DNA from: Rufibacter tibetensis
Lineage (GTDB): Bacteria; Bacteroidota; Bacteroidia; Cytophagales; Hymenobacteraceae
Direction: 5' to 3'
Assembly: GCF_001310085.1 (NCBI RefSeq)
Contig: NZ_CP012643.1
Coordinates: 899,001-963,000, forward strand
Length of the DNA stretch: 64,000 nucleotides
In this document: positions 1,648-61,541 of the stretch, piece after piece
How the letters are laid out: the number at the start of each line of letters is the position of its first letter
Position numbering within the stretch: the first letter of the stretch is position 1
Notes under the pieces: model-generated
What the model was told of the DNA's origin: nothing
What the model saw: the letters and a program-made list of their open reading frames with translations, nothing else
Database searches by the model: none
Translations under genes and position numbers: made by a program

Positions 1648-1683
1648 GTTTCAGGCCTGCTTCCTAAAAAGCAGGCCTGAAAC
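1648..1683. repeat. 36-nt intergenic palindrome, copy 1 (perfect arms)
   Basis: Two perfect 13-nt arms GTTTCAGGCCTGC and GCAGGCCTGAAAC surround a 10-nt spacer TTCCTAAAAA. It lies 10 bases after the M56 stop and probably also works as its terminator. One of the best copies of the dispersed family described in the findings. Confidence 0.85.
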
Positions 1684-1750
1684 GAGTTCACCCAGGGCAT
1701 CCACTTTCCCCTGCACCTTCTAGCTGGTTAGCTTTTCAGGTAAATCCTCC

Positions 1751-1758
1751 TAGCTTTG
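1751..1758 (+). promoter_or_regulatory. Candidate Bacteroidota -7 promoter element
   Basis: TAGCTTTG matches the TAnnTTTG -7 consensus. It is 29 bases before the TTG start of the ABC ATPase, a spacing similar to other genes in this window. No clear -33 TTG is seen. Confidence 0.5.
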
Positions 1759-1786
1759 CAGGATACCCTTTTCAACCTACCCAGAT

Positions 1787-2689
1787 TTGGCAGACATTTT
1801 AACTATTCAAGGGCTGAGCAAACGTTATGGCACGGTGCAGGCCTTAGACCAATTGAGCATTAACGTACCAGAGGGCAGCATCTATGGCCTTCTGGGACCC
1901 AATGGCAGTGGCAAAACCACCACCCTGGGTATTGTGCTGGATGTGATTAATGCCAGCGCCGGCACCTTCCAATGGTTCGGGCAACCTATCTCTAAAAATA
2001 CTAAACGTCGCATTGGCGCCCTGCTGGAAACCCCTAACTTCTACCCCTATCTTTCCGGCGAAGAAAACTTGCGCCTTTCCGCTGATGTAAAGGGAGTGGA
2101 CCACGCCCGCATCCCCGGCGTGCTGCAAACCGTAGGCCTAGCCCAACGCAAAGACAACAAGTTCAAGGGCTACTCTCTGGGCATGAAACAGCGGTTAGCC
2201 ATTGGTGCTGCGCTTTTGGGCGATCCAGAGGTGCTGGTGCTGGATGAACCAACCAATGGCCTAGATCCTGAAGGTATTGCCGAGGTGCGCCAGTTGATCC
2301 TTTCTATTGCAAGTCAGGGCAAATCCATTGTATTAGCTAGCCATTTACTGGATGAGGTAGAAAAGGTATGTACCCACATGGCGGTTCTGCGCAGCGGCAA
2401 ACTGAAAGCTGAAGGACCGGTCTCTTCCATCCTGGCCACCAATGACCTGGTATTTATCAGTGGCGGAGCACCGTTGGAAGCTTTATTACAGATAGCCTGT
2501 ACCCTGCCCTTCGTTTTGGAGGCCCGCCAGGTAAAAGGACAAGTACAGTTGGCGCTGCAACCTGCCACCGATAGCTCAGAACTCAACCGTGCCTTCTTCA
2601 ACCAGGGCATTGCCTTAGGTCAAATAGTGGTGCGCAAGAAAAGTCTGGAAAGCCAGTTCCTGGAAATCATTAAAGCCGACCACGCATGA
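1787..2689 (+). CDS. ABC transporter ATP-binding protein (DrrA/BcrA type)
   Basis: Cytoplasmic ATPase of an ABC-2 type exporter. Walker A GPNGSGKT is at residues 37-44, the signature is the variant SLGMKQR, and Walker B with D-loop is VLVLDEPTNGLDPEG; the switch His follows in LASHLLDEVE. The C-terminal 90 residues are the usual variable tail of this class. Length 300 residues is typical. The start must be the TTG at 1787: no ATG or GTG is in frame between it and the upstream stop, and the first residues ILTIQGLSKRYG are the normal N-terminus. The stop overlaps the start of the permease gene by 4 bases (ATGA), indicating translational coupling. Members of this class export lipids, antibiotics or peptides; the substrate cannot be told from sequence. 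Confidence 0.92.
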   Translation: MADILTIQGLSKRYGTVQALDQLSINVPEGSIYGLLGPNGSGKTTTLGIVLDVINASAGTFQWFGQPISKNTKRRIGALLETPNFYPYLSGEENLRLSADVKGVDHARIPGVLQTVGLAQRKDNKFKGYSLGMKQRLAIGAALLGDPEVLVLDEPTNGLDPEGIAEVRQLILSIASQGKSIVLASHLLDEVEKVCTHMAVLRSGKLKAEGPVSSILATNDLVFISGGAPLEALLQIACTLPFVLEARQVKGQVQLALQPATDSSELNRAFFNQGIALGQIVVRKKSLESQFLEIIKADHA

Positions 2690-3459
2690 CCTCCCTTCTT
2701 CGCATAGAACTACGCAAAATACTGCCTTATTCCACCTTTTGGGTACTGCTGTTGTTGCAGTGCAGCCTTCTATTTATCTTCTTTTATGCCCGCGGCAATG
2801 TAATGGTCAATGGGAAAATGGCTGGCGCCGAACTCTACCAATTCCCCAAGCTCTGGATGCACTTGACCTACGTTTCCAGTTTCCTGAACCTGATTCCGGG
2901 TATTTTGATCATCATTCTGGTGTCTGATGAATACGCGTTCAGAACCCTTCGGCAGCAAATCATTGACGGCTTCTCCCGGGCAAACGTGGTGCAGAGCAAA
3001 TCTGCTGTCATTCTGCTGCTGGCGTGCGTGCTGGCAGTTTATGTGTTTATCTTGGGCCTGGGTTTTGGGTTGTATCATCGTACTGGTGAGGGCACTTCAT
3101 CCGTTTTGACAGACGCCCAGTTTGTTCTCTATTATTTAGTACAACTGATTGGCTATATGGCCCTAGCCATGCTAATTGCGTTCCTGCTCCGGAAAACCGG
3201 ATTAGCCATTCTGGTGTTCATGGCCTACACCTTGGTAATTGAACGACTCATTCACTGGCAAACGCCTGATACCTTAGACAAGTACTTTCCTATGAAGGTT
3301 TTAGGTTCTTTAACGCCCAGCCCACACAGCGAGGTGGAGCAACTCATGTTAGGAATCACCGATTCCCTTACCGCCTTGCAAGCCCTGATCCCGGCGATGC
3401 TATACGTGGGTCTCTTCTGCTTTCTTTCTTACCAGTTGCTAAGGACAAGAGATTTGTAA
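2686..3459 (+). CDS. ABC-2 type transporter permease
   Basis: Membrane partner of the preceding ATPase. The 257-residue protein has about six hydrophobic segments, the first near residues 15-35 and the last near 235-252 (ALIPAMLYVGLFCFLSYQLL). A conserved-looking stretch DEYAFRTLRQQIIDGFSR after the second segment is the typical cytoplasmic loop (coupling helix) of ABC-2 permeases of the multidrug/lantibiotic-immunity group. The ATG at 2686 overlaps the ATPase stop by 4 bases. The gene ends before a strong bidirectional terminator. Substrate unknown. Confidence 0.85.
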   Translation: MTSLLRIELRKILPYSTFWVLLLLQCSLLFIFFYARGNVMVNGKMAGAELYQFPKLWMHLTYVSSFLNLIPGILIIILVSDEYAFRTLRQQIIDGFSRANVVQSKSAVILLLACVLAVYVFILGLGFGLYHRTGEGTSSVLTDAQFVLYYLVQLIGYMALAMLIAFLLRKTGLAILVFMAYTLVIERLIHWQTPDTLDKYFPMKVLGSLTPSPHSEVEQLMLGITDSLTALQALIPAMLYVGLFCFLSYQLLRTRDL

Positions 3460-3464
3460 ACATT

Positions 3465-3500
3465 CGTTTTTGACTGTTTTCTTGAAAACAGCCCTAAAAG
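3465..3500. repeat. 36-nt intergenic palindrome, copy 2
   Basis: Arms CGTTTTTGACTG and CAGCCCTAAAAG with spacer TTTTCTTGAAAA; the inner 8 bases of each side (CTGTTTTC/GAAAACAG) pair perfectly. Its last five bases are shared with the left arm of the terminator that follows. Confidence 0.8.
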
Positions 3501-3540
3501 CAGAACGCCCCGCTAAAGTTTAGCGGGGCGTTCTGCTTTT
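3496..3540. terminator. Long perfect hairpin, bidirectional terminator
   Basis: Bases 3496-3517 pair perfectly with 3519-3540 (22 bp, nominal 1-nt loop), starting AAAAGCAGAACG and ending in TTTT on both strands. It lies between convergent genes, the ABC permease (+) and the secreted protein (-), and should stop transcription from both. Confidence 0.9.
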
Positions 3541-3570
3541 AAAACATTTATCTTGACCTACTGCATAAGC

Positions 3571-5743: not shown

Positions 5744-5802
5744 GATGTTGTCTTCTTCAGTAAAGCAAGCCAAACCAAACTACATGCCTGCTTTTGGATG
5801 CG

Positions 5803-6009: not shown

Positions 6010-6051
6010 GGCGCTTTTAGCCTGTTTTAAAAAAATCAGGCTAAAAGCGCC
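6010..6051. repeat. 36-nt family palindrome, copy 3 (extended stem)
   Basis: GGCGCTTTTAGCCTG (6010-6024) pairs perfectly with CAGGCTAAAAGCGCC (6037-6051), 15 bp with a 12-nt spacer. The family core is 6014-6047. The extension may make this a terminator for transcripts from either side. Confidence 0.85.
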
Positions 6052-6066: not shown

Positions 6067-6102
6067 ATTTTAAGCTGATTCTCTGGAAAACAGCCTTTAG
6101 AC
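6067..6102. repeat. 36-nt family palindrome, copy 4
   Basis: Blocks ATTTTAAGCTGA, TTCTCTGGAAAA, CAGCCTTTAGAC; 16 bases after copy 3. Arms are imperfect (AAGCTG/CAGCCTT). Confidence 0.65.
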
Positions 6103-9366: not shown

Positions 9367-9380
9367 AGATAGAATGACTG

Positions 9381-9416
9381 GTTTATCTCTGTTTTTTGAA
9401 ATTTGCCCTGAAAAAT
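9381..9416. repeat. 36-nt family palindrome, copy 5 (degenerate)
   Basis: Blocks GTTTATCTCTGT, TTTTTGAAATTT, GCCCTGAAAAAT. Its end touches the last base of the following lipoprotein gene's stop codon at 9416. Confidence 0.55.
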
Positions 9417-9996: not shown

Positions 9997-10032
9997 ATTT
10001 CAAGGGTATTTTTTGTAAAACAGGCCTGAAAC
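9997..10032. repeat. 36-nt family palindrome, copy 6
   Basis: Blocks ATTTCAAGGGTA, TTTTTTGTAAAA, CAGGCCTGAAAC. The right arm is at consensus, the left arm is decayed. Lies between two lipoprotein genes. Confidence 0.75.
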
Positions 10033-11791: not shown

Positions 11792-11827
11792 ATTTCTGCC
11801 TTTCTTTTTGGAAACCAGCCTTAAAAT
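11792..11827. repeat. 36-nt family palindrome, copy 7
   Basis: Blocks ATTTCTGCCTTT, CTTTTTGGAAAC, CAGCCTTAAAAT, in the divergent gap between the lipoprotein cluster and apbC; it lies just upstream of the apbC promoter. Confidence 0.65.
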
Positions 11828-13344: not shown

Positions 13345-13380
13345 TCTTGTAGGTTGTTTTTCAAAAACACGCTTAAAAAG
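13345..13380. repeat. 36-nt family palindrome, copy 8
   Basis: Blocks TCTTGTAGGTTG, TTTTTCAAAAAC, ACGCTTAAAAAG directly after the terminator. Confidence 0.65.
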
Positions 13381-13480: not shown

Positions 13481-14758
13481 ATGCTCAACGCCAACGACCC
13501 ATCGCTCCACTCCTGGATTCAGATTGCCCCAGAAAGTGATTTCCAGATCCAGAACCTGCCTTTCGGGATTTTTCAGGCAGCAGACCGGGACCCGCGGGTG
13601 GGCGTAGCCATTGGCGAGTACGTGTTGGATGTATACGTGCTCACCCAGCATGGGCTCTTTGATATGTTGGACGTGGAAGACCCCACTGTATTCCACCGCC
13701 CCTTCCTCAACGATTTAATGTCTTTAGGCAGAACTATCTGGCGCCAGGTGCGGGGCCGCATTTCTGAACTCCTGCGCAATGACAACCCTGAGATTAGAGA
13801 CAACCGGACCTTGATGGCCGAGTGCCTCCTGAAGCAGAAAGATGTGCAGATGCTTCTGCCAGTGCTCATTCCTAACTACACAGACTTCTACTCCAGCATT
13901 GAACACGCCACCAATGTGGGCTCTATGTTCCGGGACCCCGCCAATGCCTTGTTGCCCAACTGGAAGCACTTGCCCGTAGGCTACCATGGCCGCGCCTCTT
14001 CCATCGTCCCGTCAGGGGTACCTATCAGGAGGCCCAAAGGCCAGACCAAACCCGCCGATGCCGAGGTTCCTATCTTCGGGCCTACCAAACAGCTGGACTT
14101 TGAGTTGGAGGTGGCCTTTATCACCGGGCAACCTACCCAATTAGGCAATTCCCTCACCACCGAGGAAGCAGAGGAATACATCTTTGGGATGGTTCTGTTT
14201 AACGACTGGTCAGCCCGGGATATACAGGCGTGGGAATACGTGCCGCTGGGGCCATTCCTGGCGAAGAACTTCGGCTCCTCCATTTCCCCCTGGGTTGTGA
14301 CGCTGGATGCTTTAGAACCTTTCCGGGTACCGGGACCGGTGCAGGACCCCAAGGTGTTGCCTTACCTGGAGTACAGCGGAAACAAGAACCTGGATATTCA
14401 ACTGGAGGTAACGCTGCAGGCACCGGGCTCAGCGGAAGAGGCGGTAATTTGCCGGTCCAATTACAAGCACATGTATTGGAACATGAACCAGCAGTTGGCG
14501 CACCATACGGTAAATGGCTGCAATCTGGAAGTAGGTGACCTGTACGCCTCAGGGACCATCAGCGGTCCTACTACAGACTCTTATGGTTCTATGCTGGAGT
14601 TGACGTGGCGCGGCACCAAGCCGCTGCAACTGCCCAACGGCACCGAACGCAAGTTCCTCCAAGATGGCGATGTTATTACCATGCGCGGCTACGCCGAAAA
14701 GAATGGCGTTCGGGTAGGATTTGGGGAAGTACGCACTGAGATTCTTCCTGCCTTTTGA
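13481..14758 (+). CDS. fahA: Fumarylacetoacetase
   Basis: Last enzyme of tyrosine/homogentisate breakdown: hydrolyses 4-fumarylacetoacetate to fumarate and acetoacetate in the cytoplasm. The 425-residue length and two-domain layout fit the family: an N-terminal SH3-like domain (LPFGIFQAAD, DNPEIRDNRTLMAECL) and a catalytic FAH domain from about residue 125 with YTDFYSSIEHATNVG (metal-binding Asp and catalytic His), LPVGYHGRASSIVPSG, ELEVAFITG and FNDWSARDIQAWEYVPLGPF. Its neighbour is a flavin reductase-like protein often found with this pathway; homogentisate dioxygenase and HPPD are not in the window. Confidence 0.95.
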   Translation: MLNANDPSLHSWIQIAPESDFQIQNLPFGIFQAADRDPRVGVAIGEYVLDVYVLTQHGLFDMLDVEDPTVFHRPFLNDLMSLGRTIWRQVRGRISELLRNDNPEIRDNRTLMAECLLKQKDVQMLLPVLIPNYTDFYSSIEHATNVGSMFRDPANALLPNWKHLPVGYHGRASSIVPSGVPIRRPKGQTKPADAEVPIFGPTKQLDFELEVAFITGQPTQLGNSLTTEEAEEYIFGMVLFNDWSARDIQAWEYVPLGPFLAKNFGSSISPWVVTLDALEPFRVPGPVQDPKVLPYLEYSGNKNLDIQLEVTLQAPGSAEEAVICRSNYKHMYWNMNQQLAHHTVNGCNLEVGDLYASGTISGPTTDSYGSMLELTWRGTKPLQLPNGTERKFLQDGDVITMRGYAEKNGVRVGFGEVRTEILPAF

Positions 14759-14836
14759 GATTTGAAATTTAGGGAGGTGGAAATTTGAAGAGTTTTTCCA
14801 CATCCTATATCTGCTTTAATCTTCAAATCCATCGCC

Positions 14837-15752: not shown

Positions 15753-15788
15753 GTTTTGAAGCTCTTTTTGTCAAAACATCTTCAAAAC
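15753..15788. repeat. 36-nt family palindrome, copy 9
   Basis: Blocks GTTTTGAAGCTC, TTTTTGTCAAAA, CATCTTCAAAAC. Outer 9 bases pair perfectly (GTTTTGAAG/CTTCAAAAC). Confidence 0.75.
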
Positions 15789-15809
15789 CTTGCTGGGGCA
15801 GTAAATAGA

Positions 15810-15857
15810 AAAGCTGTTTTGGATCTCTTTTCCTGAAAAGAGATCCAAAACAGCTTT
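15810..15857. terminator. Bidirectional terminator built on palindrome copy 10
   Basis: Bases 15810-15832 pair perfectly with 15835-15857 (23 bp, 2-nt loop). The inner 36 bases (15816-15851) are a family copy with blocks GTTTTGGATCTC, TTTTCCTGAAAA, GAGATCCAAAAC. It separates the convergent flavin reductase and ald genes, showing that members of the repeat family can serve as terminators. Confidence 0.88.
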
Positions 15858-15902
15858 CTGCTTTAGTTAAAAACGACCAGTTAAAACTTAATCTATCAAT
15901 CC

Positions 15903-17144: not shown

Positions 17145-17586
17145 ATACTCTCATACTAATGATACGCGCTTCTTCGGTCTCTCCTGTTTCTATAGACACT
17201 TCTACCCCCTCATCGGGCAGTAGATTTGCTACTTTAGAGGGCCATTCTATGAGGCAAAGGTTACCGGAACTGAAATATTCCAGCGCTCCCATATCTAGGG
17301 CCTCTTCCTCATTTTCGACCCTATAAAAATCAAAATGGTAAATGAGTTCCCCACCTTCCCCTTCGTACTCATTCACGAGGGAAAACGTAGGGCTGCTAAC
17401 CGGCTCATGAACCCCTTTCTGGGCACATATTGCCTTGATAAAGGTGGTTTTACCCGCCGCCATTTCACCTTCAAACAAAATTATCTTTTTTTGTCCGATA
17501 AATGATAATAAATCAGCGGCAGCGGCGGGTAAATCCGATTTTGTGGAGAGATGAAGCGTTTGTTCACGCGTTCCCTTATCAGGCAT
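17107..17586 (-). CDS. tsaE: tRNA t6A37 threonylcarbamoyl adenosine biosynthesis ATPase TsaE
   Basis: ATPase of the TsaBDE complex that makes N6-threonylcarbamoyladenosine at tRNA position 37. The P-loop GEMAAGKT is at residues 40-47, and SSPTFSLVNEYEG and HFDFYRVENEEEALDMG are family signatures. Length 159 residues. It overlaps porX by 8 bases upstream and ald by about 26-38 bases downstream, so the three genes form one transcript. Confidence 0.93.
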   Translation of the reverse strand: MPDKGTREQTLHLSTKSDLPAAAADLLSFIGQKKIILFEGEMAAGKTTFIKAICAQKGVHEPVSSPTFSLVNEYEGEGGELIYHFDFYRVENEEEALDMGALEYFSSGNLCLIEWPSKVANLLPDEGVEVSIETGETEEARIISMRVYDGGNDGEEQRV

Positions 17587-19141
17587 TTTTAGTAGAAAGT
17601 GTTATAAACGGAATGATACATTCCTCCAAAGATACGCCCCCGTGCTGGAACGTGTCTTTGTAATGGTTCACGTAGTAGTTGTAATTATTAGGGTACGCAA
17701 AAAAGTCATCGTTCATGGCGAACACGTAGGCCGTAGACACGTTGCTTTTGGGCAAGTGAAAACGCTCCGGCTTGCGGCACACTAATACATCCTTCTCGGT
17801 GAAGCCCAAGTTCTTGCCGTGCTTGTAGCGCAGGTTGGTGTTAGTGTTGCGGTCGCCCACAATCTTGAATGGCTTTTTTACGCGCACGGTACCGTGGTCT
17901 GTGGTGATGATGAGACGGCCCTTGCGGTCCGCAATGGCTTTAAGGGTATCAAACAGAGGCGAGTGCATAAACCAGGAACGCGTCAGAGAACGATAGGCAG
18001 CCTCATCGGCGGCTAGTTCCCTGATCATCTGCATGTCTGTACGGGCATGGGAGAGCATGTCCACGAAGTTGTAGACAATCACGTTGAGCTTGTTGTTCTC
18101 CAAGTTATTGAACTTGGTTAAAAGCTCCTTTCCGGCGTTATTATTCGTGATTTTATGGTAGCTGAACTTATCACTGATCTTGTTCTGCTGAAACTGGATT
18201 TCCAGGAAATCTTCTTCGTGCAGGTTCTTGCCTTCTTCCTCATCATCAGACACCCACAGGTTAGGGTAGCGTTTGGCAATGTCGGCGGGCAGCATGCCTG
18301 AGAAAATGGCGTTACGGGCGTAAGCAGTGGTAGTAGGCAATATGGAGTAATACATCTCCTCCTGCTCCACGTTGAAATAGTCTGTGATGATGGGTTCCAG
18401 TACTTTCCATTGGTCATAGCGCAGGTTGTCTATCAAGACAAAGTACACCGGCACATCGCTTTCCTTCATCATCGGGAAAACGCGGTCCTTAAACAGCCTG
18501 TGTGACATCAACGGAATCTCATCGGTTTCGTCGTTCACCCACTCTTCATAATTGTCCATGATGAACTTCGCGAAGTTGGTGTTGGCCTCGTCTTTCTGCA
18601 TGTTGATCACCTCGGCCATGCTTTTGCCTTCCGTGTCAGCAATCTCCAGTTCCCAGAAAACCAATTTCTTGTATACATCGGCCCATTCCTGGTAATTCAG
18701 GCGTTCCCCGAAAGCCATGCCCAAGGTTCTGAAGTCGCGCTGGTACGAACTGTTGGTTCTTTCCTCTACCAGACGGCGGTTGTCCAGAATCTTCTTGATA
18801 GAAAGCAGTATCTGGTTCGGGTTGATGGGCTTGATAAGGTAATCGGCTATTTTAGACCCGATGGCCTCTTCCATGATGTGTTCTTCCTCGCTTTTGGTTA
18901 TCATGACCACCGGTAGCGTAGGCCGAACGGCTTTAATTTCACTTAAGGCCTCTAAACCACTTAGGCCGGGCATGTTTTCGTCTAAGAAGACAAGGTCATA
19001 CGTCTGCTCCTGCACCTTCTCCACAGCATCGGCCCCGCTGTTTACCGGGGTGATGTCGTAACCTCTGTCAGTTAAGAAGAGAATATGCGGCTTGAGGAGG
19101 TCAATCTCGTCGTCCGCCCACAAAATAGTATATCTTTGCAT
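17579..19141 (-). CDS. porX: T9SS response regulator PorX (receiver plus PglZ domain)
   Basis: Two-component response regulator that in Bacteroidota controls the type IX secretion system with the sensor PorY and sigma factor SigP. Residues 1-120 are a receiver domain with acidic pocket D10-D11, phospho-acceptor D54 (FLDENMP) and the TK/KP motifs (VMITKS, LIKPINP). The remaining 400 residues carry an alkaline-phosphatase-like PglZ domain with IDNLRYDQW, TTTAYARNA, FVDMLSHARTD and TTDHGTVRV. No DNA-binding domain is present, as expected. Length 520 residues is standard. The T9SS-sorted GH74 protein in this same window is a likely client of the secretion system it governs. First gene of an overlapping cluster with tsaE and ald. 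Confidence 0.95.
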   Translation of the reverse strand: MQRYTILWADDEIDLLKPHILFLTDRGYDITPVNSGADAVEKVQEQTYDLVFLDENMPGLSGLEALSEIKAVRPTLPVVMITKSEEEHIMEEAIGSKIADYLIKPINPNQILLSIKKILDNRRLVEERTNSSYQRDFRTLGMAFGERLNYQEWADVYKKLVFWELEIADTEGKSMAEVINMQKDEANTNFAKFIMDNYEEWVNDETDEIPLMSHRLFKDRVFPMMKESDVPVYFVLIDNLRYDQWKVLEPIITDYFNVEQEEMYYSILPTTTAYARNAIFSGMLPADIAKRYPNLWVSDDEEEGKNLHEEDFLEIQFQQNKISDKFSYHKITNNNAGKELLTKFNNLENNKLNVIVYNFVDMLSHARTDMQMIRELAADEAAYRSLTRSWFMHSPLFDTLKAIADRKGRLIITTDHGTVRVKKPFKIVGDRNTNTNLRYKHGKNLGFTEKDVLVCRKPERFHLPKSNVSTAYVFAMNDDFFAYPNNYNYYVNHYKDTFQHGGVSLEECIIPFITLSTKNA

Positions 19142-19180: not shown

Positions 19181-19216
19181 GTTTCTTGCGTTATTTCTAA
19201 AAAATAGCACCTAATC
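19181..19216. repeat. 36-nt family palindrome, weak copy
   Basis: Blocks GTTTCTTGCGTT, ATTTCTAAAAAA, TAGCACCTAATC fit the 36-nt frame, but both arms are far from consensus. Sits in the divergent gap between porX and the HD gene. Confidence 0.35.
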
Positions 19217-20528: not shown

Positions 20529-20540
20529 ATGGCAACTGTG

Positions 20541-20575
20541 TCTTAGGCCTGTTTTGCTTTAAATACCATGAAAGC
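20541..20575. repeat. 36-nt family palindrome, half copy
   Basis: Left arm TCTTAGGCCTG then TTTTGC; the right half (AAAGCCGC) is decayed. Confidence 0.4.
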
Positions 20576-21085: not shown

Positions 21086-21121
21086 ACTCTAGGCCTGTTT
21101 CAAGGAAAGTAAGCCTTAAAC
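21086..21121. repeat. 36-nt family palindrome, copy 11
   Basis: Blocks ACTCTAGGCCTG, TTTCAAGGAAAG, TAAGCCTTAAAC; inner arms pair with one mismatch. Confidence 0.75.
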
Positions 21122-30367: not shown

Positions 30368-30404
30368 GTTTTAGATGTGTTTTTGTAAAAACAGGCTTAA
30401 AAAC
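30368..30404. repeat. 36-nt family palindrome, copy 12 (37 nt)
   Basis: Blocks GTTTTAGATGTG, TTTTTGTAAAAA, CAGGCTTAAAAAC. Right arm near consensus. Confidence 0.7.
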
Positions 30405-30430
30405 TGTTTTTTATGATTTCAGTTAAAATC
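30395..30430. repeat. 36-nt family palindrome, overlapping weak copy
   Basis: GCTTAAAAACTG and CAGTTAAAATC flank TTTTTTATGATTT. It shares bases with the right arm of the previous copy; the spacer resembles that of the copy at 35706. Confidence 0.4.
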
Positions 30431-30702: not shown

Positions 30703-30738
30703 CTTTCGAGGCTTTTTTCTGAAAAAAAGCCCTAAAAC
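30703..30738. repeat. 36-nt family palindrome, copy 13
   Basis: Blocks CTTTCGAGGCTT, TTTTCTGAAAAA, AAGCCCTAAAAC. Well-paired inner arms (GGCTTTTTTC/GAAAAAAAGCC). Confidence 0.75.
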
Positions 30739-33050: not shown

Positions 33051-33086
33051 TGTTTTGTAATGTTTTGAGAAAAAAAGCCCTGAAAG
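33051..33086. repeat. 36-nt family palindrome, copy 14
   Basis: Blocks TGTTTTGTAATG, TTTTGAGAAAAA, AAGCCCTGAAAG, between GH74 and GH3 genes. Confidence 0.6.
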
Positions 33087-35612: not shown

Positions 35613-35648
35613 CTTTTCAAGGTTGTTTTCTGAAAACAGGTCCTAAAC
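35613..35648. repeat. 36-nt family palindrome, copy 15
   Basis: Blocks CTTTTCAAGGTT, GTTTTCTGAAAA, CAGGTCCTAAAC, upstream of the GH74 gene. The first residues of the falsely extended GH74 frame are encoded by it. Confidence 0.8.
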
Positions 35649-35705: not shown

Positions 35706-35742
35706 GTTTTGAGGCTGTTTTTTATGGATTTGCCCGAAAAAC
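35706..35742. repeat. 36-nt family palindrome, copy 16, covering the GH95 stop codon
   Basis: Blocks GTTTTGAGGCTG, TTTTTTATGGATT, TGCCCGAAAAAC. The GH95 stop (35722-35724) is in its centre, and its right half encodes the last residues VFRANP. Confidence 0.7.
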
Positions 35743-38217: not shown

Positions 38218-38253
38218 GTATATGCCTTGTTTTCAGAAAACAGGAGATAAAAG
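38218..38253. repeat. 36-nt family palindrome, copy 17
   Basis: Blocks GTATATGCCTTG, TTTTCAGAAAAC, AGGAGATAAAAG; the core CCTTGTTTTC/GAAAACAGG pairs well. Confidence 0.7.
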
Positions 38254-38257: not shown

Positions 38258-38914
38258 CTACTTGCGAGCTGTTTGGGCTGATTTCACCTTCAAAGATTTG
38301 TAGACTTCATTTGCCAGCAGGGCCGCACCGGCATCATTGGGGTGAATGCCGTCATACGTCAATTCGGGCTTTCCCAGAAAAGGTGTGTACAGGTCAATGG
38401 TCTTCGATTTCGTTTTCTTGGCGACTTTCTTCACTGCCGGTACAATCTCAGTGTTCACCACCGGTTTGCTGATACTGAATTTTTCTTCGAACACCGGCAC
38501 CGGGGTGCAAACGTACACCTTGGGTTTAGAGGCTAGTTTCTTGAAAGAGGCCACAAACTGAATGTAATCAGGCACGAACTCATCTTTGAATTTCCAGTTC
38601 ATGGGCTTGGAATCGTTGGTGCCCAGTTTGATGATGACGATGTCGGGGTTCCAGGCCAGGGCGTCCTGGTATTTGGTTTCGTTCCAGAACGGCTGATTTC
38701 CTTTTTTCAGGAGCGTACGGCCACTCACTCCGAAGTTGCGCACCTCGTAGGCACCGCCCAATAGTTGCTGTAGAACTGCGGGATAGGTTTGCTTGAGACC
38801 GGCTCCTTCGGTGATACTGTTGCCCACGCAGGCTACTTTTATTTTGTTCTGCGCCGAGGCTCCAAAACAAACCAGCAATACCAACAGATAGAGGAGAGAG
38901 AAATGCTTTTTCAT
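38258..38914 (-). CDS. SGNH/GDSL hydrolase, probable carbohydrate esterase
   Basis: Secreted esterase of 218 residues with signal peptide ending GASAQ. The four SGNH blocks are visible: ACVGNSITEGAGL (nucleophile S33), FGVSGRTLLKKG, LGTNDSKPMNW and YDGIHPNDAG (catalytic Asp and His). Inside a xyloglucan locus the natural guess is removal of acetyl groups from galactosyl or glucosyl residues, but SGNH enzymes are broad. It is 112 bases upstream of the GH95 gene in the same direction. Confidence 0.88.
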   Translation of the reverse strand: MKKHFSLLYLLVLLVCFGASAQNKIKVACVGNSITEGAGLKQTYPAVLQQLLGGAYEVRNFGVSGRTLLKKGNQPFWNETKYQDALAWNPDIVIIKLGTNDSKPMNWKFKDEFVPDYIQFVASFKKLASKPKVYVCTPVPVFEEKFSISKPVVNTEIVPAVKKVAKKTKSKTIDLYTPFLGKPELTYDGIHPNDAGAALLANEVYKSLKVKSAQTARK

Positions 38915-38952: not shown

Positions 38953-38988
38953 ATTTTAAGGCTAATTCTTCTAAATCAGGCTTAAAAC
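38953..38988. repeat. 36-nt family palindrome, copy 18
   Basis: Blocks ATTTTAAGGCTA, ATTCTTCTAAAT, CAGGCTTAAAAC, between GH2 and the esterase gene. Confidence 0.75.
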
Positions 38989-41468: not shown

Positions 41469-41493
41469 GTTTTCCTAAAAAGGCATTTAAAAC
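41458..41493. repeat. 36-nt family palindrome, copy 19, covering the GH2 start codon
   Basis: Blocks GTTTTTTGCATG, TTTTCCTAAAAA, GGCATTTAAAAC. The GH2 ATG (41466-41468) lies in its left block; a hairpin would hide the start. Confidence 0.75.
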
Positions 41494-41601: not shown

Positions 41602-41637
41602 GTTTTCGGGCAGTTTTTCTAAAAAGAAGGCTAAGAC
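41602..41637. repeat. 36-nt family palindrome, copy 20
   Basis: Blocks GTTTTCGGGCAG, TTTTTCTAAAAA, GAAGGCTAAGAC. Confidence 0.7.
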
Positions 41638-43187: not shown

Positions 43188-43223
43188 GGTTTTAAGGCGA
43201 TTTTCTGAAAAGGGCTTCAAAAC
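43188..43223. repeat. 36-nt family palindrome, copy 21
   Basis: Blocks GGTTTTAAGGCG, ATTTTCTGAAAA, GGGCTTCAAAAC, between SusD and the surface lipoprotein gene inside an operon. Confidence 0.75.
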
Positions 43224-48006: not shown

Positions 48007-50862
48007 TTATTTCAGTTTCACCGAGGAGGCACTGCCCGAATAGGCAATGGTAGCGTCTGGCTTGGCATCAAAAGCTAGGGCTTTGGCTTTGCCCGGCTGC
48101 ACAAACACCACGTTGAAGGTGCGCTTCAGCAACATGCCATTGAATTCGCCCTGGCGTTTGCCCACAGTAAGGGTTTTGGAGGCCTCATTATAGGTGATGG
48201 GAATGGTAGCGAACTTGCCTTGCTCGTAGTTGTAGTTTGTGTTTTCGTCTTCGTACAACTCAAAAGAAGCATCTTTGCCTCCGTACACATACAAGGTGAT
48301 GGTCTCGGCTGGCTTTTCAGTCGTGTATTGCAATTCTGGTCCGAATGGCAGAATAGAGCCTTCTTTCACGAACAGCGGCATGCGCTCATAAGGGGCTGCG
48401 GCCGTGATCTGCTGACCACCTTTCTGGTAAGAACCGTCATAGAGGCTGTACCAACCGGTATTGGCAGGCAGATACAGTTTACGGCTGGTAGCCTTGGCTT
48501 CATACACTGGGTTCACCAACAAGCTAGGCCCAAACATGAACTGATCACCAATGTTCAGCACGTTTTTATCAGTGCCGAAGTCCATCACCAGCGGACGCAT
48601 GATGGTGCCGTTCTTGTGATACACCTGCCCGGTAAGCGAGTAGATGTACGGCATCAGGCGGTAGCGCAGCTTGTTGTAGTACACAATAGCTTGGTATGCC
48701 TTGTGGTTTTCAGGCGCAATGTTGTACACCTCCCGGAACGGAAACTGGCCATGCGCACGATACAAGGGCGTGAAAGTGCCGTACTGGTACCAGCGGGTGT
48801 TCAGCTCGCGCCATTCTTCCTGTACCTCAGGCGTCATAGTGCCACGGTCATACTTGTTTTCCACGAAGAAACCTCCAATATCCGTTGTCCAGTAAGGCAA
48901 GCCAGACAAGGAGAAGTTCAGACCGGCCGGAATCTGGCGGCCCATTTCCTCAAATGTAGACGCAATGTCTCCGCTCCAGGTGGCGGCTCCGTAGCGCTGC
49001 AACCCTCCAAAGGCCGAACGGGTCAAGATGAACACCCGGTCATTGGGGTTGGTACCGCGCTGTCCTTCATAGATGCCTTTGTTGTGCTGCAGCACGTAGG
49101 CGTTGAAGTACTTATCGGCAGGTCCTAAATACGTAGGGTTCATCAAGGCCTTGCGGTGCGCAATAGACGAGTTGGAAAGGATGTCTGGCTCAGAGGCATC
49201 TTGCCACCAGGCGTCAATGCCCATTTTGTAGAGCTTTTCGCTAATCAGGTCCCAAAACATCTTGCGGCCCTCGGGGTTAAAGGCGTCATAGAACGTAGAC
49301 ACGTAGCCTTTGCCAATCCAGTCTCTGATTTGCTCATTAATGCTGGTTTTATATAACAGGCCTTTCTGGTCAAACTTCTTGTAAGCGTCAATGCCTTCAT
49401 AGAACTTAGGCCAGGTGGAGATCATGATCTTGGCATTGTTGGCGTGCACCTCGTTGATCATGCCTTTTGGGTCTGGGAACCGGGTCCCGTCAAACTCTTG
49501 GCTTCCCCACTGGTCTTCTTTCCAGTAAGACCAGTCCTGCACAATGTTATCTAACGGAATCTGGCGCTTGCGGAATTCCTTTACCACTTCCAGTAGTTCC
49601 TGCTGCGTTTTGTAACGCTCGCGGCTCTGCCAGAAGCCCATGGCCCACTTAGGCATTACCTGCGCCTTACCGGTCAGTTCACGGTAACCACTCACCACTT
49701 CGTCCATGTTTTTGCCGTGCACAAAGTAGTAGTCCATTTTATCACCAGCCTCAGAAGAGAAGGCAACGGTATTCAGGTCTTGGGCAGGTTGTGGGGTCAA
49801 GAACCGAAGCGCCAGGTAAGACACATTGCCATCTGGGTTCCACTCCATTTTAAAGGAGTGCTTCTTTCCTTTCTGCAGAGGCGCCTTGAACACCGACATG
49901 CCCGGGTTCCAGGCTTCGCGCCAGCGGTCCAGCAGCAGTTTGTTGTCAATCCATACCTTCACGTACCCGGAAGAAGGCATCTCGAACCGGTGGTCACCGG
50001 TTGCGTCGCTTTCAATGAAGCCTTCCCAGGTCATCAAGCCTCCTTCTAAGGAGTAGCCAGTAGGGTATTTGTTTTGGTCTTCCAGGAACTCATAGCTGAT
50101 CTCAGACTCCTGACGCACAATAGGTGCTTTCCCGGTCTTTTTATCAAAAGCATAGGTAGCGGTAAGGCCGCCGGCCTTCTGGTCTTTGCCGTAAAGTTTC
50201 AGTTTGGAAAGCTGCTGATACGGGCGCACATCGCCAAATTTGGTGATAGAGTTGTTATCCCACAGGATGCCGTAGTTTTTGCTGGACACCAGGAAAGGCA
50301 CCACCGCAACCGAGTTGTATTGGGTAAGGTCTACCTGCCAGCCTCTGTAATTCATCAGGCCGGCCTGGTGCTGGCCCAAACCATAGAATGCCTCATCTTT
50401 GTCTACATTGAATGCTTTCTTTAATTGGTAGCTTTGAGTAGTACCAAAGGTAACCGGCGCGAAGGCCTGCTTTCCTGCATTGTTTTCCTGCAGCAACACT
50501 TTCCCGCTTTTATCAAAGAAAGTAACCGCCCCGTTCTCAGCACCTACTTCCACCCGAAGGGCTTTGGTGTTTAAAACTAAAGTTTTGCCTTTCTCCTGAT
50601 ATTGCCAATCGGTTTTCTTGGTTTTGTCTTCCAGCACCATGAGGCTGGCTTCCTCAGAGAACTTCTCCACTGGCGTAGCCGATACCTGGATGATATTGTC
50701 CCCCACTACCCGAACCTTCACAATCTTGGGTTGGCCGTTAGCTGGTTTTTCCAACCGCACCAATACACCGTCTTCCAGTTTCTGGTAGTTCTTTATTGCA
50801 GGCTGCTTAAAGGAAAACAGCGTCCCGATGAGCGCTAAACAAAGCGTGTTTCTAAGCTTCAT
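48007..50862 (-). CDS. GH31 alpha-xylosidase with PA14 insertion
   Basis: Retaining glycosidase of 951 residues, most likely the alpha-xylosidase that removes xylose from the non-reducing end of xyloglucan oligosaccharides. Signal peptide about residues 1-20. The N-terminal GH31 sandwich is interrupted by a PA14-like module at about residues 255-365 (YSLEGGLMTWEGFIESDATGDHRFEMPSSGYVKVWIDNKLLLDRW), a layout known from the xyloglucan-acting enzyme Xyl31A of Cellvibrio. The barrel has WSYWKEDQWG, nucleophile Asp in DAWWQDASEPD, and acid/base Asp in WSGDIASTFEEM. Starch-type alpha-glucosidase activity is a less likely alternative. First gene of the GH31-SusC-SusD operon and next to the regulator. 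Confidence 0.92.
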   Translation of the reverse strand: MKLRNTLCLALIGTLFSFKQPAIKNYQKLEDGVLVRLEKPANGQPKIVKVRVVGDNIIQVSATPVEKFSEEASLMVLEDKTKKTDWQYQEKGKTLVLNTKALRVEVGAENGAVTFFDKSGKVLLQENNAGKQAFAPVTFGTTQSYQLKKAFNVDKDEAFYGLGQHQAGLMNYRGWQVDLTQYNSVAVVPFLVSSKNYGILWDNNSITKFGDVRPYQQLSKLKLYGKDQKAGGLTATYAFDKKTGKAPIVRQESEISYEFLEDQNKYPTGYSLEGGLMTWEGFIESDATGDHRFEMPSSGYVKVWIDNKLLLDRWREAWNPGMSVFKAPLQKGKKHSFKMEWNPDGNVSYLALRFLTPQPAQDLNTVAFSSEAGDKMDYYFVHGKNMDEVVSGYRELTGKAQVMPKWAMGFWQSRERYKTQQELLEVVKEFRKRQIPLDNIVQDWSYWKEDQWGSQEFDGTRFPDPKGMINEVHANNAKIMISTWPKFYEGIDAYKKFDQKGLLYKTSINEQIRDWIGKGYVSTFYDAFNPEGRKMFWDLISEKLYKMGIDAWWQDASEPDILSNSSIAHRKALMNPTYLGPADKYFNAYVLQHNKGIYEGQRGTNPNDRVFILTRSAFGGLQRYGAATWSGDIASTFEEMGRQIPAGLNFSLSGLPYWTTDIGGFFVENKYDRGTMTPEVQEEWRELNTRWYQYGTFTPLYRAHGQFPFREVYNIAPENHKAYQAIVYYNKLRYRLMPYIYSLTGQVYHKNGTIMRPLVMDFGTDKNVLNIGDQFMFGPSLLVNPVYEAKATSRKLYLPANTGWYSLYDGSYQKGGQQITAAAPYERMPLFVKEGSILPFGPELQYTTEKPAETITLYVYGGKDASFELYEDENTNYNYEQGKFATIPITYNEASKTLTVGKRQGEFNGMLLKRTFNVVFVQPGKAKALAFDAKPDATIAYSGSASSVKLK

Positions 50863-51108: not shown

Positions 51109-51145
51109 GTTTCCCGCCCCTTTTCACAAAAGCAGGTCTTAAAAG
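51109..51145. repeat. 36-nt family palindrome, copy 22 (37 nt)
   Basis: Blocks GTTTCCCGCCCC, TTTTCACAAAAG, CAGGTCTTAAAAG; right arm near consensus. Confidence 0.65.
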
Positions 51146-51203: not shown

Positions 51204-51240
51204 GATTTGAAATTGTTTTTCAGAAAATGGGCAAGAAATC
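51204..51240. repeat. 36-nt family palindrome, copy 23 (degenerate)
   Basis: Blocks GATTTGAAATTG, TTTTTCAGAAAAT, GGGCAAGAAATC. Confidence 0.5.
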
Positions 51241-54300: not shown

Positions 54301-55526
54301 CGGGTGTACTGGCCGGTGCTTCGGTTCCAATAAAGCAAACCGCCCCCATTAGTGCCCATCCAGAGATTTCCCTTTGCGTCTTCCACAAACCGGTTAATGT
54401 CATCATAGGGTAAACTCCCTTTTACCAGCAACTGGTTTTGGTGGTGCTGAAACCGAAGCAGGTTCTTGTGGTAGTAGTTGACGCCTTTTTTGTAGGTACC
54501 TAACCAGATGATCCCTTCCCGATCTTTGTAGATGGAGATTAAGCTATTATGCGAAAGACTGTTTTCTATTTCAGGGCCGTTTTGAACAAATTGCACCGAA
54601 AGGTCTCTCTTGTTCACGATGTTGATGCCGCCGTGGTCGGTGGCCAGCCAGATGGTGCCGTCTTCGTTTTCCACGATGCCCCGCACCAGGTTGGTGTTCA
54701 ACCGCAACGTAGGCGCATTCTCATGAAGTTGCTGGAAAGTTTTAGTGGCTGGACGATACAGGAAAGCCCCAATGCTTTCATAAGACGAATAAACCCACAG
54801 GTCTCCGTTCTGGTCAATGGTCATTCCGTATCCCATTGCCTGTCCTTTAAAAATATTCTGCAGTCCCTTTTCCTGCGCCTCCACCTTCAAGGTTTTGGCG
54901 TTAAGCTTTTCCAGCACCCCATTGGCGTGCAACAGCCACAGGTCTCCTTCCTGAGTAAAGGAAATGGCGTTTATGGGATTTGAAACGGCTTGGCTTGCAC
55001 CGGTAGCAGTTCCTTTTACCGGAGTAGACACCTTCGTTTTAGGGTTGAACCTGGTTAGGCCTTGTCCGGTTTGCAGAAACCAGTAATTGCCGTATTTGTC
55101 TTGCTGGATGTTTTCAACCGGCGCCTGCGGAAGGGAATACTGTTTCAGCAGGGGCTCATAATCTCGGTCAAACCGATCTTCTTTGGGCTTGTAAACCGTG
55201 AGTCCTTTCTGCGAGGTGACCCAAATGTTCCCTTCGGGGTCTTCAAAAAGCTTACTGATGTTGTTATCCCTGAGAGAGGCAGTGTTTCGGGAGTTATGCC
55301 GGAAGACTTTCACTCCGTAGCCATCAAACCGGTTAAGGCCAGAAGAAGTACCTATCCAAATGTACCCTTTGCTGTCTTTCAGGAAACTGTTGACCTGGTT
55401 GTGTGAAAGCCCGTTGTTGACATCTATGCGCAGAAAACGACGCTGTTCTCCTGAATTCCCAAACACCTGGGTTATGTTTGCCATCAAGGCAAAAAAGACA
55501 ACAACAATATTGACAAGTAAGCGCAT
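51354..55526 (-). CDS. Hybrid two-component system regulator (HTCS) of the PUL
   Basis: One-protein sensor and transcription activator of 1390 residues. Signal peptide (ALMANITQVFGN) then a periplasmic double propeller of Reg_prop repeats (many GxIWIGTxxGLNxF copies, about residues 35-690), a Y_Y_Y domain (about 735-800) and one membrane segment near 815-835 (YVTYFVLAFLILVLIRR). The cytoplasmic part has HisKA with phospho-His in NISHEFRTPLTLIL near residue 877, HATPase_c with SGIGLSITREFVKIHGG, a receiver with LLVEDSED and phospho-Asp in IVSDLMMPEL near 1184, and an AraC-type DNA-binding domain from about 1295 (FSVEFMSRELGMSRVYLYKR, AYAVGFNNPRYFSKYFKE). Such proteins bind an oligosaccharide outside and switch on the neighbouring locus. 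Confidence 0.96.
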   Translation of the reverse strand: MRLLVNIVVVFFALMANITQVFGNSGEQRRFLRIDVNNGLSHNQVNSFLKDSKGYIWIGTSSGLNRFDGYGVKVFRHNSRNTASLRDNNISKLFEDPEGNIWVTSQKGLTVYKPKEDRFDRDYEPLLKQYSLPQAPVENIQQDKYGNYWFLQTGQGLTRFNPKTKVSTPVKGTATGASQAVSNPINAISFTQEGDLWLLHANGVLEKLNAKTLKVEAQEKGLQNIFKGQAMGYGMTIDQNGDLWVYSSYESIGAFLYRPATKTFQQLHENAPTLRLNTNLVRGIVENEDGTIWLATDHGGINIVNKRDLSVQFVQNGPEIENSLSHNSLISIYKDREGIIWLGTYKKGVNYYHKNLLRFQHHQNQLLVKGSLPYDDINRFVEDAKGNLWMGTNGGGLLYWNRSTGQYTRYQHNSKDPNSLSNNVVVSLLLDKDQNLWIGTYLGGLNKFDGKKFTRYKHNAQDTYSLGHDNVWELFQDSQNRLWIGTMRGGLQRLEPSTGKFLSYGRSATKPGLEGLYVAAIAEDAKGNLWTGGDIGVEVLNLASGKLLQFKNDPQNPKSLSSNSVLSIFRDSRQKMWVGTNEGLNLFDPRTNSFRLFTKENGLSDNIILNILEDKQHNLWISTPNGISKLEMTGRQAHEISFVTRNFDESDGLQGKVFNENAAYLTRKGEVVFAGPNGFNIFQPGELTSNKVVPAIVFTDFQLFSRSLKVGEEVGGSVILPRALADTKQISLQHDQNMFTVEFAALNFFHSEKNKYQYKLEGFDKEWHTTDGGNRRITYTNLDPGKYQLVVKASNNDGVWNKEGISLDIEVQVPFWRSDVAYVTYFVLAFLILVLIRRVEKQKANQKFELERERREVKHMRELHLMKIKFFTNISHEFRTPLTLILAPLERLLATTQDAEQTKQFQMINRNAKRLLHLVNQLLDFRKLEVEEVAFAPSHGNIVKFIKEAVYAFSDLSEKNHVNLSFETSIKELHASFDMDKLGKILFNLLSNAFKFTPENGDIKVEVNCHENDSNSQGLYLLEIKVSDTGIGISKENQEKIFDRFFREDVPDNLVNQGSGIGLSITREFVKIHGGLIQVQSELGKGSCFIVTLPIKVSGSITQESGIFEVEEETVSVVPALETTIQASSAAPDHKLVVLLVEDSEDFRTYLKDSLSSHFTVLEAKNGKEGWQKALSAMPDLIVSDLMMPELNGIDFCKKIKSDARTSHIPFILLTAQTAEEQKLKGLGIGANDYITKPFNFELLLSRMSNLIAQCQLLQKAYGKKISVQTSSIDIVSLDDKLIQKAIKVVEDNIDCPEFSVEFMSRELGMSRVYLYKRIVALTGQSPVEFIRKIRLERAAQLLEKSQLTVAEVAYAVGFNNPRYFSKYFKEAYHMLPSVYAESKQSQPTA

Positions 55527-55961
55527 CTATCTACTTTAAACTTCTCTGAAGGAGACATTCACCCTCCTCAAACCCCTCTTTCCTCTGGAAGGCAAAGGCT
55601 TTTTTCCTCCAAATATGACTTCCACCTTAAAGCTAATTTTGATAAGCCAGTTTAGGTTGAAGATAAGCATCAAATACCAACCCCACCTTTAAAATCATAT
55701 GCAATATAGGCTTTTTTACAAAATTCAGGGAGGTCTTTTTTAGATCCGTCAAGAACCTCCCACGTTATTAGCCTTATATTATTAAAACCTCAAAAAGAGA
55801 ATTGAGCTCTTTGAACCCTTCGGTTCTTTTGAAAAAGGTAGATACCCAATTTTCCTTCACCTGCTACAAATTGCCCATTTTTTATAAAACAAGGCATAAA
55901 CGCCAAAATCGATCTTTGTTCGTTACTCTTTTCAAGCGGGATAATCTTTATCGAGAGTTAT

Positions 55962-55997
55962 GTTTAAAGGGTACTTTTCAGAAAATAGCTTTAAAAC
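55962..55997. repeat. 36-nt family palindrome, copy 24
   Basis: Blocks GTTTAAAGGGTA, CTTTTCAGAAAA, TAGCTTTAAAAC. Confidence 0.7.
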
Positions 55998-57148: not shown

Positions 57149-57179
57149 CTTTAGCCCCTCTTTACCTATTTAGTGCTTC

Positions 57180-59993: not shown

Positions 59994-60030
59994 GTCTGGC
60001 AAAAATGATTGCCCCTTATTAACCAGCGGA

Positions 60031-60066
60031 GCTTTTCAGCCTGATTTCCTAAAACACTCCCAAAAC
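60031..60066. repeat. 36-nt family palindrome, copy 25
   Basis: Blocks GCTTTTCAGCCT, GATTTCCTAAAA, CACTCCCAAAAC; left arm better kept than right. Confidence 0.6.
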
Positions 60067-60079
60067 GCTCAAACTGAAA

Positions 60080-60103
60080 AAAGCCACCCCTGAAGGTGGC
60101 TTT
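60080..60103 (-). terminator. Hairpin terminator after the esterase-family gene
   Basis: AAAGCCACC (60080-60088) pairs with GGTGGCTTT (60095-60103), loop 6; on the minus strand six T follow. May also stop the lpx operon from the other side. Confidence 0.75.
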
Positions 60104-60163
60104 CCCATATATGTAGTAAGATGGCGCAGATACGTTTACAGAACAGCTAACAAGTAGTATTGT

Positions 60164-61444
60164 TTACTCGTTTGCCGGATACATTTCTGGTGGCTCTTTC
60201 TCTTTTGTCTTGACAATAAACGGCCTAAGCGCTTCTGTTTCATCTAAGTACAGGAAGGCATCATACCGTTCTGGGATGATGGTGGGCACGTAATTGCCGT
60301 ATTTCTCCCGATTAGGGTCATACACTACTCCAATAGCCCGATGAGCGATCTGCTGTCTTGCTTCCTCAACTTCCCGGAGTTCACGGGAGAGCAGGAGTTT
60401 ATCAGTACCACCCAGATTGTGGAGCCAGTCTTCCCAGGAACCTTTACGAGCGGGTGGGACTTCCATCTTTTTCATGGGCGCACCCCAGGAATCGCTGGCA
60501 ATGACAGAACCTTCATAGGAGCCGAATCCGGCCAGATACACATTCTCTCTTCCGTATTGTTCACGGGCTAATTGCCCTATGTTCACCATACCGGCCCGGG
60601 CCATGTCGGTGAAGCGGGCATCCCCTATGTGGGTATTGTGCTCCCAAATAATGGCTTTGGAATTTGGGCCGTGGAATTCCAATAAGCGATTCAGGGTTTC
60701 CATCATGTGCCCATCACGCACGTTCCAGGAACTGCCACCCCCTTTTATCATGGCTTTGTAGTAACGCTCAGCGTTTACTGCCACTAAGGCGTTTTGCTCA
60801 GCGTCAAAAACAGCTTCGGGGTTGCCTGGCTCTTCTCTTTCCCGCTTGCCTAATTCCTGCAGCATAGAGATCACCTCCTCTTCGCAGTCTTCAGAGACGT
60901 AAGCTACGGCGCGGGCGTATTCCTGCGGATCTGAGCTGTACGGTTCAAAGCATTTGAACGCTTCCTTGGCTGCTTTCACTGCATGACCATCCTTTTTCTC
61001 AAGGTATTTCATGATGTGCTGCAGCGAATCCCAGAGGCTGTACACGTCTAAGCCATAGAAACCTATTTTGTTTGTGTTAGGACGGTCATTGTTTTCTTTA
61101 AGCCATTCTACCAAGGCTGCTACTTCCCAGTTGCCCCACATCCAGGTAGGCCAGCGGTTGAAGTGCTTCAGGATATCAGATACCTTGGTGCCCGGTTTGC
61201 AATAGCCCCGTATGAACTTATTAATCTGGTAGCAATCTGGCCAATCACCCTCCACGGCTATGAAGATGAAGCCTTTCTCTTCTATGAGGCGCTTAGAGAT
61301 GGCAGTGCGCCAGGAGTAGTATTCAGAGGTGCCGTGGGAGGCCTCCCCCAACATCACAATACGGGCGTCTCCAATATCGTCCAGCAGAATATCTAAATCA
61401 GCTTTGTTCTCCAGCCGGTGGTACGGCAGTTTTGAATAAGTCAT
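60164..61444 (-). CDS. Erythromycin esterase family protein
   Basis: Hydrolase-like protein of 426 residues. Family blocks: RIVMLGEASHGTSEYYSWR near residue 30 (GEASHG motif), FIAVEGDWPDC, WGNWEVAALVEWL, GFYGLDVYSLWDSL and IIWEHNTHIGDAR, the last with the presumed catalytic His. EreA/EreB proteins open the lactone of erythromycin, but most chromosomal relatives in environmental bacteria, often called succinoglycan-biosynthesis-like, are uncharacterised; resistance should not be assumed. No signal peptide, so cytoplasmic. Single gene with its own terminator. Confidence 0.88.
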   Translation of the reverse strand: MTYSKLPYHRLENKADLDILLDDIGDARIVMLGEASHGTSEYYSWRTAISKRLIEEKGFIFIAVEGDWPDCYQINKFIRGYCKPGTKVSDILKHFNRWPTWMWGNWEVAALVEWLKENNDRPNTNKIGFYGLDVYSLWDSLQHIMKYLEKKDGHAVKAAKEAFKCFEPYSSDPQEYARAVAYVSEDCEEEVISMLQELGKREREEPGNPEAVFDAEQNALVAVNAERYYKAMIKGGGSSWNVRDGHMMETLNRLLEFHGPNSKAIIWEHNTHIGDARFTDMARAGMVNIGQLAREQYGRENVYLAGFGSYEGSVIASDSWGAPMKKMEVPPARKGSWEDWLHNLGGTDKLLLSRELREVEEARQQIAHRAIGVVYDPNREKYGNYVPTIIPERYDAFLYLDETEALRPFIVKTKEKEPPEMYPANE

Positions 61445-61505
61445 GGAACTTGAGGGAAATATGAACTCCCTGCCTTTTACCCCGCAATGGTTTTAAAAGT
61501 TTACA

Positions 61506-61541
61506 TGTTTTTGCCCTATTTTCAGAAAACATGAGCTAAAC
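61506..61541. repeat. 36-nt family palindrome, copy 26
   Basis: Blocks TGTTTTTGCCCT, ATTTTCAGAAAA, CATGAGCTAAAC. Confidence 0.65.

Follow-up and report, generated by a model that had tools for sequence, protein, structure and literature searches.

A genus-restricted, dyad-symmetric 36-bp motif concentrated behind stop codons in Rufibacter tibetensis: candidate sites for a nucleoid protein

Introduction

What are the 36-nt palindromes that occupy so many gaps between genes in this part of the Rufibacter tibetensis chromosome? The stretch analysed, hereafter the window, comprises 64,000 nucleotides (positions 899001-963000 of contig C1, which has 5,165,513 bases) of a 5.41 Mb genome in three contigs. 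The original prediction described a family of such palindromes in intergenic gaps and offered a selfish repeat, a 3'-end hairpin or a chromosome-organising site as explanations. The family proved real and in excess over controls, while the placement, the constant part and the copy estimate given for it had to be corrected. On balance, the comparisons below suggest that the copies are binding sites in double-stranded DNA for a putative dyad-symmetric nucleoid protein, acting as a dimer or tetramer. No description of the motif was found in the open-licence literature searched, as far as the accessible portions of those papers extend. The nearest named relatives of the fumarylacetoacetase encoded in the window, Rufibacter species and Sabulibacter ruber, share 85-92% identity with it.

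Copy number and anatomy of the motif

The motif was searched with an iterated symmetric 36-nt profile at a threshold of 14 bits, trained on a 464-kb sample that combined the window with 20 further stretches, each of 20 kb. The sample held 273 matches, against 7 in an order-2 Markov control. Across the 400 kb of the 20 stretches, the profile gave 235 matches and the same profile read backward gave 10. A pattern search of the complete genome returned 99 forward and 102 reverse matches, and 0 and 0 for the reversed pattern. Outside the training set, each of ten loci from the genus (Rufibacter, Sabulibacter) contained 9 to 20 matches and an Adhaeribacter locus (L017) contained none. The window itself holds 38 matches of at least 14 bits, where about one would be expected by chance from the Markov control. 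These comprise all 26 copies listed originally, each recovered within 12 nt, and 12 more, of which 7 lie deep in genes. Extrapolated from the sample density, the 14-bit threshold would give about 3,000 copies for each chromosome, so that the one to two thousand foreseen for the genome was too low.

The shared frame had been described as GGCCTG-type arms; by the profile, the constant part consists of T and A tracts instead. The strong columns are TT (3,4), TTT (14-16), AAA (21-23) and AA (33,34), with 1.2-1.4 bits each, followed by the weaker G1, T2, C10 and T11 and their mirror images. Spacers between the four tracts are variable with weak base preferences, and columns outside 1-36 hold at most 0.13 bit. 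The distance from left to right half-site is 18-20, with a sharp maximum at 19 and a lesser one another turn out, at 30-31, and left-left spacings fall at 11-12; some copies carry a third tract one more turn outward. Between the inner two tracts the spacing is 7 bp, which does not keep phase with the outer pairs. A profile-free count of gapped dyads in intergenic DNA gave peaks at TTT-N16-AAA and at N15, N4, N14, N5 and N27, and no such peak appeared in the second contig of the same genome. When 72 copies lying 10-45 nt behind stop codons were oriented by their gene, they remained mirror-symmetric.

Position along genes and contigs

Genes were called as the longest open reading frames (ORFs), not by a trained gene finder, and their start positions are uncertain. 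With ORFs of 90 amino acids (aa) or more, 155 sample matches are wholly intergenic, 86 wholly inside ORFs and 25 at edges. Density peaks at 11.6-11.9 per kb where the motif centre falls 20-30 nt behind a stop codon, stays at about 4-7 per kb from 30 to 100 nt, and drops to 1.6-3.0 beyond 100 nt and to 0.23 inside genes; gene starts show no corresponding peak. The same stop-codon peak is present in the pooled profile of the whole genus, in which orthologous gaps are counted repeatedly. For gaps of 100-200 bp, the share with a copy is 18 of 23 when convergent, 30 of 48 when tandem and 4 of 17 when divergent.

Along the chromosome the copies are evenly spread: all 23 blocks of 20 kb hold 8-18 of them (mean 11.8). 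With the density of the chromosome, the 235-kb second contig would hold about 139 matches; it gave 9, of which 2 reach 20 bits (reversed control 4), and the 7.5-kb third contig gave 3.

The second contig was nearly motif-free despite plentiful intergenic DNA (loci L143, L144, L146-L155). A plasmid origin was considered for it, but a megablast comparison of 20 kb of it with a plasmid collection returned no match.

Copies inside genes

The copies had been placed only outside genes or at their edges. The interiors of ORFs of 250 aa or more in this genome (255.7 kb) nevertheless hold 54 matches, against 5 with the profile reversed, 1 with its halves moved by 5 and 6 with its halves moved by 3. For the relatives in the genus (355.9 kb, some loci overlapping) there were 21 matches against 0, 1 and 4 in the same controls, and for other Bacteroidota (685 kb) 26 against 26, 31 and 28.

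At 21 coding sites (several of which are one site seen again in related genomes or in loci that overlap), alignment showed point substitutions and no motif-sized gap wherever relatives could be aligned. The exceptions are one-residue differences at one site (L008/L134) and a 4-residue gap in a distant paralogue; one site in L138 had no relative to align. Where the residue is unchanged, an A or T in the third codon position is kept in 55 of 73 comparisons at the anchors; the remainder of these genes gives 2570 of 6311. The count covers 7 window sites in 29 site-genome pairs, with none kept in some distant relatives, and, as for the gap pairs below, the pairs are not independent since relatives share history. 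The alignments indicate that the coding copies arose by substitution, and the lack of a motif-sized insertion argues against an inserted repeat.

Spread across species and conservation in gaps

The enrichment is restricted to the genus. The pattern TTTT-N7-TTTT-N4-AAAA-N7-AAAA, with at most 2 mismatches, was matched 1160-2739 times in each of 16 genus genomes (reversed control 42-111), the genome of the window being the lowest. Five other genera of the family, represented by 184 genomes, stayed at control level (1-180 matches), and a stricter pattern was matched once among 294 further genomes taken from the class.

The motif also reappears in orthologous gaps. Among 118 orthologous gap pairs, the motif is present in both genomes in 62, in the window's genome only in 12, in the relative only in 9 and in neither in 35. 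One genome was entered twice here (as L007 and G037); without its 7 duplicate pairs, a hand count gives 59, 11, 9 and 32 of 111. All 19 convergent pairs have the motif in both genomes, and divergent pairs often differ (both 11, own only 10, relative only 4, neither 7). Across 75 aligned site pairs from 21 sites, the anchors are 87.5% identical, the spacers 64.6% and the flanks 64.2%.

Sister genera show other over-abundant short palindromes. We observed TATATA 394 times in 200 kb of G002 (L156-L165) and CCTAGG 241 times in 200 kb of G004 (L166-L175), the latter often as ACCTAGGT between genes. Possibly every genus carries a genome-wide word of its own.

A putative nucleoid-protein site

The dyad symmetry, the fixed half-site spacing, the anchors kept while spacers drift, the origin by substitution and the presence in both untranslated and coding DNA together favour a site that is recognised in double-stranded DNA. 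The many copies and their even distribution are more suggestive of a nucleoid protein than of an ordinary regulator. In the proposed mechanism, a protein with dyad symmetry, in dimeric form or as a dimer of dimers, would contact four short T or A tracts, each half offering a tract pair one helical turn apart and the halves lying about 18-19 bp apart. Some 3,000 chromosomal sites, densest right behind stop codons, would anchor this nucleoid-associated protein, which would then bend DNA, bridge it or handle transcription supercoils at gene ends. We infer that a protein reads the motif, that it is of the nucleoid kind and that it has such a role. Of the explanations offered originally, the chromosome-organising site fits best, given the mirror symmetry, helical phasing, genus-wide spread, even spacing and near-absence from the second contig; the part of that proposal for which nothing was found is the binder.

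The stop-codon peak may reflect a role at gene ends, by analogy with GapR in Caulobacter as described in the accessible part of PMC8510090; alternatively, the DNA between stop codon and terminator may simply be the least constrained. GapR resembles the putative protein in acting at gene 3' ends, on AT-rich DNA and as a dimer of dimers, according to the same text, which describes no fixed 36-bp site for it.

Several observations weigh against a nucleoid-protein site. No binding protein was found, HU and GapR being the only binder families looked for. GapR is absent from all 19 genomes searched, HU is not expanded in the genus, and Rho and SMC are as in other genera; thus neither HU expansion, loss of Rho or SMC, nor GapR sets the genus apart. 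A simple bend would not have the helical phase of the inner tracts (7 bp). Some covariation is present: three spacer pairs rise above shuffles at z 2.1-3.6, and in 18 of 273 copies, where about 3 are expected, 9 or more of the 12 variable pairs are complementary. T and A runs outside the motif served as a further control. The central TTT/AAA is 90.0% identical, against 78.5% for TTT/AAA elsewhere in the aligned gaps, and when runs from the same gap are used the figures are 88.9% for anchors and 79.6% for runs, the motif being higher at 14 of 20 sites (p 0.02, kinship ignored). These controls weaken the argument from conservation. The site is dyad-symmetric and conserved at its putative contact positions, the conservation being weaker when judged against same-gap TTT/AAA.

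The LexA site of Bacteroidetes was also considered and rejected. The available text of PMC8565304 gives CTAA-N5-TTAG for Hymenobacteraceae, which is unlike the motif.

Alternative explanations

The alternative that survives best, and one we consider rather unlikely, is a signal for DNA uptake or another molecular drive of that kind, in which DNA carrying the motif is preferentially taken up or converted and the motif multiplies through substitution while being of no use to the cell. Uptake sequences (uptake signal sequences, USS, and DNA uptake sequences, DUS), as the accessible part of PMC1852404 describes them, are likewise lineage-specific, present in about a thousand copies or more, found inside and outside genes and sometimes placed in terminators. 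The motif shares their genome-wide, lineage-specific over-representation: it is genus-specific, present in thousands of copies, formed by substitution also inside genes, found within some terminator hairpins and almost missing from the second contig. It is, however, long, degenerate and dyad-symmetric, at 36 bp, whereas the signals in that text measure 9-11 nt. Moreover, no PilT was detected above the cut-off in the 16 genus genomes (39 genomes searched), the search having been aimed at PilT and at no other pilus or competence part; one 48-position fragment in G012 (E 5.7e-4) fell below the cut-off.

An RNA element of the 3' untranslated region, protecting or ending transcripts as a hairpin or as RNA bound by a protein, would account for the sharp peak 20-30 nt behind stop codons. 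It has a low probability in our judgement. Median minimum free energy (MFE) was -4.1 for the 273 copies and -4.0 for chimeras, and complementarity of spacer pairs was near the level of shuffled halves, with the central pair below it. There is a tail of true palindromes, and folding energies below -15 kcal/mol were obtained for 18 of the 273 copies, compared with 1 among the chimeras. Most copies are therefore not good stem-loops, and a minority double as hairpins. The 3'-end hairpin offered originally thus holds for this minority, including one two-way terminator stem in a convergent gap, and fails for the rest, which show almost no covariation. The RNA reading is further opposed by the lack of strand asymmetry and by the copies in genes and divergent gaps.

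That terminator stem is the copy at 15816-15851 (30.7 bits; MFE -20.1 over 36 nt, -33.3 over 56 nt), which forms the stem of an AAAAGC...GCTTTT two-way terminator-like hairpin. The complete hairpin, at 15808-15859, is a clean case of covariation, its arms having changed among relatives while still pairing; all nine relatives whose gap was examined carry a hairpin at the orthologous place with altered arms.

Known RNA signals were considered as well. An uncalibrated home-made detector placed terminator-like hairpins at 61 of 128 gene ends with the motif and at 21 of 64 without, and found motif and hairpin to overlap in only 7 of 80 pairs; this co-occurrence speaks against the motif as a terminator replacement. 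Nor is it an intrinsic terminator (a GC-rich hairpin with a T run), as most copies do not fold, the one at 15816 being an exception. Rfam covariance models gave 0 matches in the window at gathering thresholds, and with folding and covariation supporting only a minority of copies, a hairpin or RNA family was rejected.

Intrinsic DNA shape would dispense with a dedicated reader: phased A/T tracts would be selected for curvature or for the placement of supercoils. This is about as improbable as the RNA element. Tracts do lie one turn apart, with a third further out in some copies, but the inner tracts are out of phase with the outer pairs. Restriction to one genus and the weak base preferences of the spacers suggest a specific reader.

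The palindrome HIP1 of cyanobacteria is similarly over-represented across the genome, according to the portion of PMC4390886 at hand; it is an 8-mer tied to methyltransferases, whereas the motif is a 36-bp frame of T and A tracts that is strongly depleted in genes.

A decayed selfish family of repetitive extragenic palindromes (REPs) or miniature inverted-repeat transposable elements (MITEs), reduced to its most constant letters, is very unlikely, in that coding copies align to orthologues lacking the motif with no gap of its size, the flanks (at most 0.13 bit) show neither a GTAG nor a CGTC foot, anchors are kept while spacers drift, and G012 has many copies and no match to a Y1 transposase whereas motif-free genera have as many Y1 genes. 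The likeness is in copy number, length and placement and in the coexistence of perfect and degenerate copies. The accessible sections of PMC3733652 describe REPs and bacterial interspersed mosaic elements (BIMEs) as palindromes of 20-40 bp in hundreds to thousands of copies near 3' ends, with REPs lying close behind ORFs in convergent and same-direction gaps. The motif differs in its missing foot, its little stem covariation, its origin by substitution within genes and the lack of a link to REP-associated tyrosine transposases (RAYTs). Y1 matches number 1-6 in 15 of the 16 genus genomes and are similar in motif-free genera, in a survey confined to the genes themselves. The only Y1/RAYT-type match of this genome is at C1:187026-187253, outside the window, in keeping with the original statement that the window has no RAYT-type transposase. 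The selfish element proposed there is not supported, given the coding copies and RAYT genes that do not track the motif. A REP/RAYT system was rejected on the missing foot, the RAYT genes and the coding alignments. Most copies also have no conserved stem, covarying or constant (a minority do pair).

Copies in the window and neighbouring features

Scores below are from the symmetric profile, with strand entered as '.' throughout. Behind stop codons, the copy at 1648-1683 (28.6 bits; centre at 27 nt) folds into a strong hairpin (-26.0), and that at 3465-3500 (29.8 bits; centre at 23 nt) is followed by a GC-rich terminator-like hairpin with a T tail. Centres at 29, 35 and 22 nt were found for 20540-20575 (19.7 bits; in 7 of 7 orthologous gaps, G037 being L007), 38953-38988 (28.4 bits) and 38218-38253 (19.6 bits), the last behind a minus-strand gene. 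The copy at 9380-9415 (22.0 bits) adjoins the stop of a minus-strand gene, 35706-35741 (21.5 bits) overlaps a stop codon region, and 17574-17609 (14.5 bits) is a marginal copy at a gene end.

Convergent gaps hold 15753-15788 (30.5 bits; immediately after the stop), 21086-21121 (20.8 bits), 30368-30403 (32.7 bits) with the weak overlapping 30395-30430 (15.4 bits), 30703-30738 (32.6 bits) and 60031-60066 (22.4 bits). Tandem gaps hold 9997-10032 (30.3 bits) and 33051-33086 (21.6 bits), both in short gaps, 51109-51144 (25.2 bits) and 51204-51239 (25.0 bits), both in a long-gap setting, and 61507-61542 (23.4 bits). In divergent gaps, 11792-11827 (26.0 bits) is retained in relatives and 19181-19216 (23.6 bits) in 2 of 12 orthologous gaps; the others are 55962-55997 (33.2 bits) and the weak 55866-55901 (15.8 bits). 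At the edges of called ORFs are 13345-13380 (22.5 bits), 35613-35648 (28.1 bits; a long ORF with a TTG start) and 43188-43223 (28.9 bits; TTG start), and 41458-41493 (28.6 bits) lies at a gene edge. Further copies were scored at 6013-6048 (31.9 bits; strong hairpin, -18.4), 6067-6102 (21.1 bits) and 41602-41637 (26.2 bits).

Within genes, orthologues were compared for 38524-38559 (24.8 bits), in a GDSL-lipase-like gene, and 54568-54603 (19.7 bits), in a hybrid two-component regulator gene. Weak intragenic copies are at 31837-31872 (15.3 bits), 32829-32864 (15.2 bits), 36606-36641 (15.9 bits) and 49223-49258 (15.3 bits), with a marginal one, new relative to the earlier list, at 965-1000 (14.2 bits).

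Three other features were noted. Another dispersed inverted repeat, around GGACACGAGC...GCTCGCGCCAGC, occurs several times in the sampled stretches of this genome and in the gap left of the fumarylacetoacetase gene in L010 and L014. Runs of a GATTTGAAGATGTGG-like low-complexity repeat are present at the window gap 14758-14836 in many relatives (orthologous gaps L007-L017), Adhaeribacter included. At 30794-33028 of the window, a family 3 glycoside hydrolase is apparently split over two ORFs, the first carrying the N-terminal domain plus the beginning of the C-terminal one and the second the remainder of it together with an Fn3-like domain; the split could be a frameshift or a sequencing error.

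Implications

The boldest form of the nucleoid-protein proposal is a sequence-addressed chromatin of the genus's own, in which a putative protein family would recognise some 3,000 copies of a four-tract 36-bp code, one to each gene gap immediately after the stop codon, and would mould intergenic DNA and synonymous codons across the genus. We put this forward as a tentative and still doubtful idea. If the nucleoid-protein reading is right, point mutation has given one genus thousands of binding sites, placed behind most of its genes and even within codons. The genus would then offer a natural system for learning how nucleoid proteins and their sites spread and what gene ends need, as well as a testbed for the genome-wide spread of a motif by selection versus drive, with the motif-free sister genera as ready-made controls.

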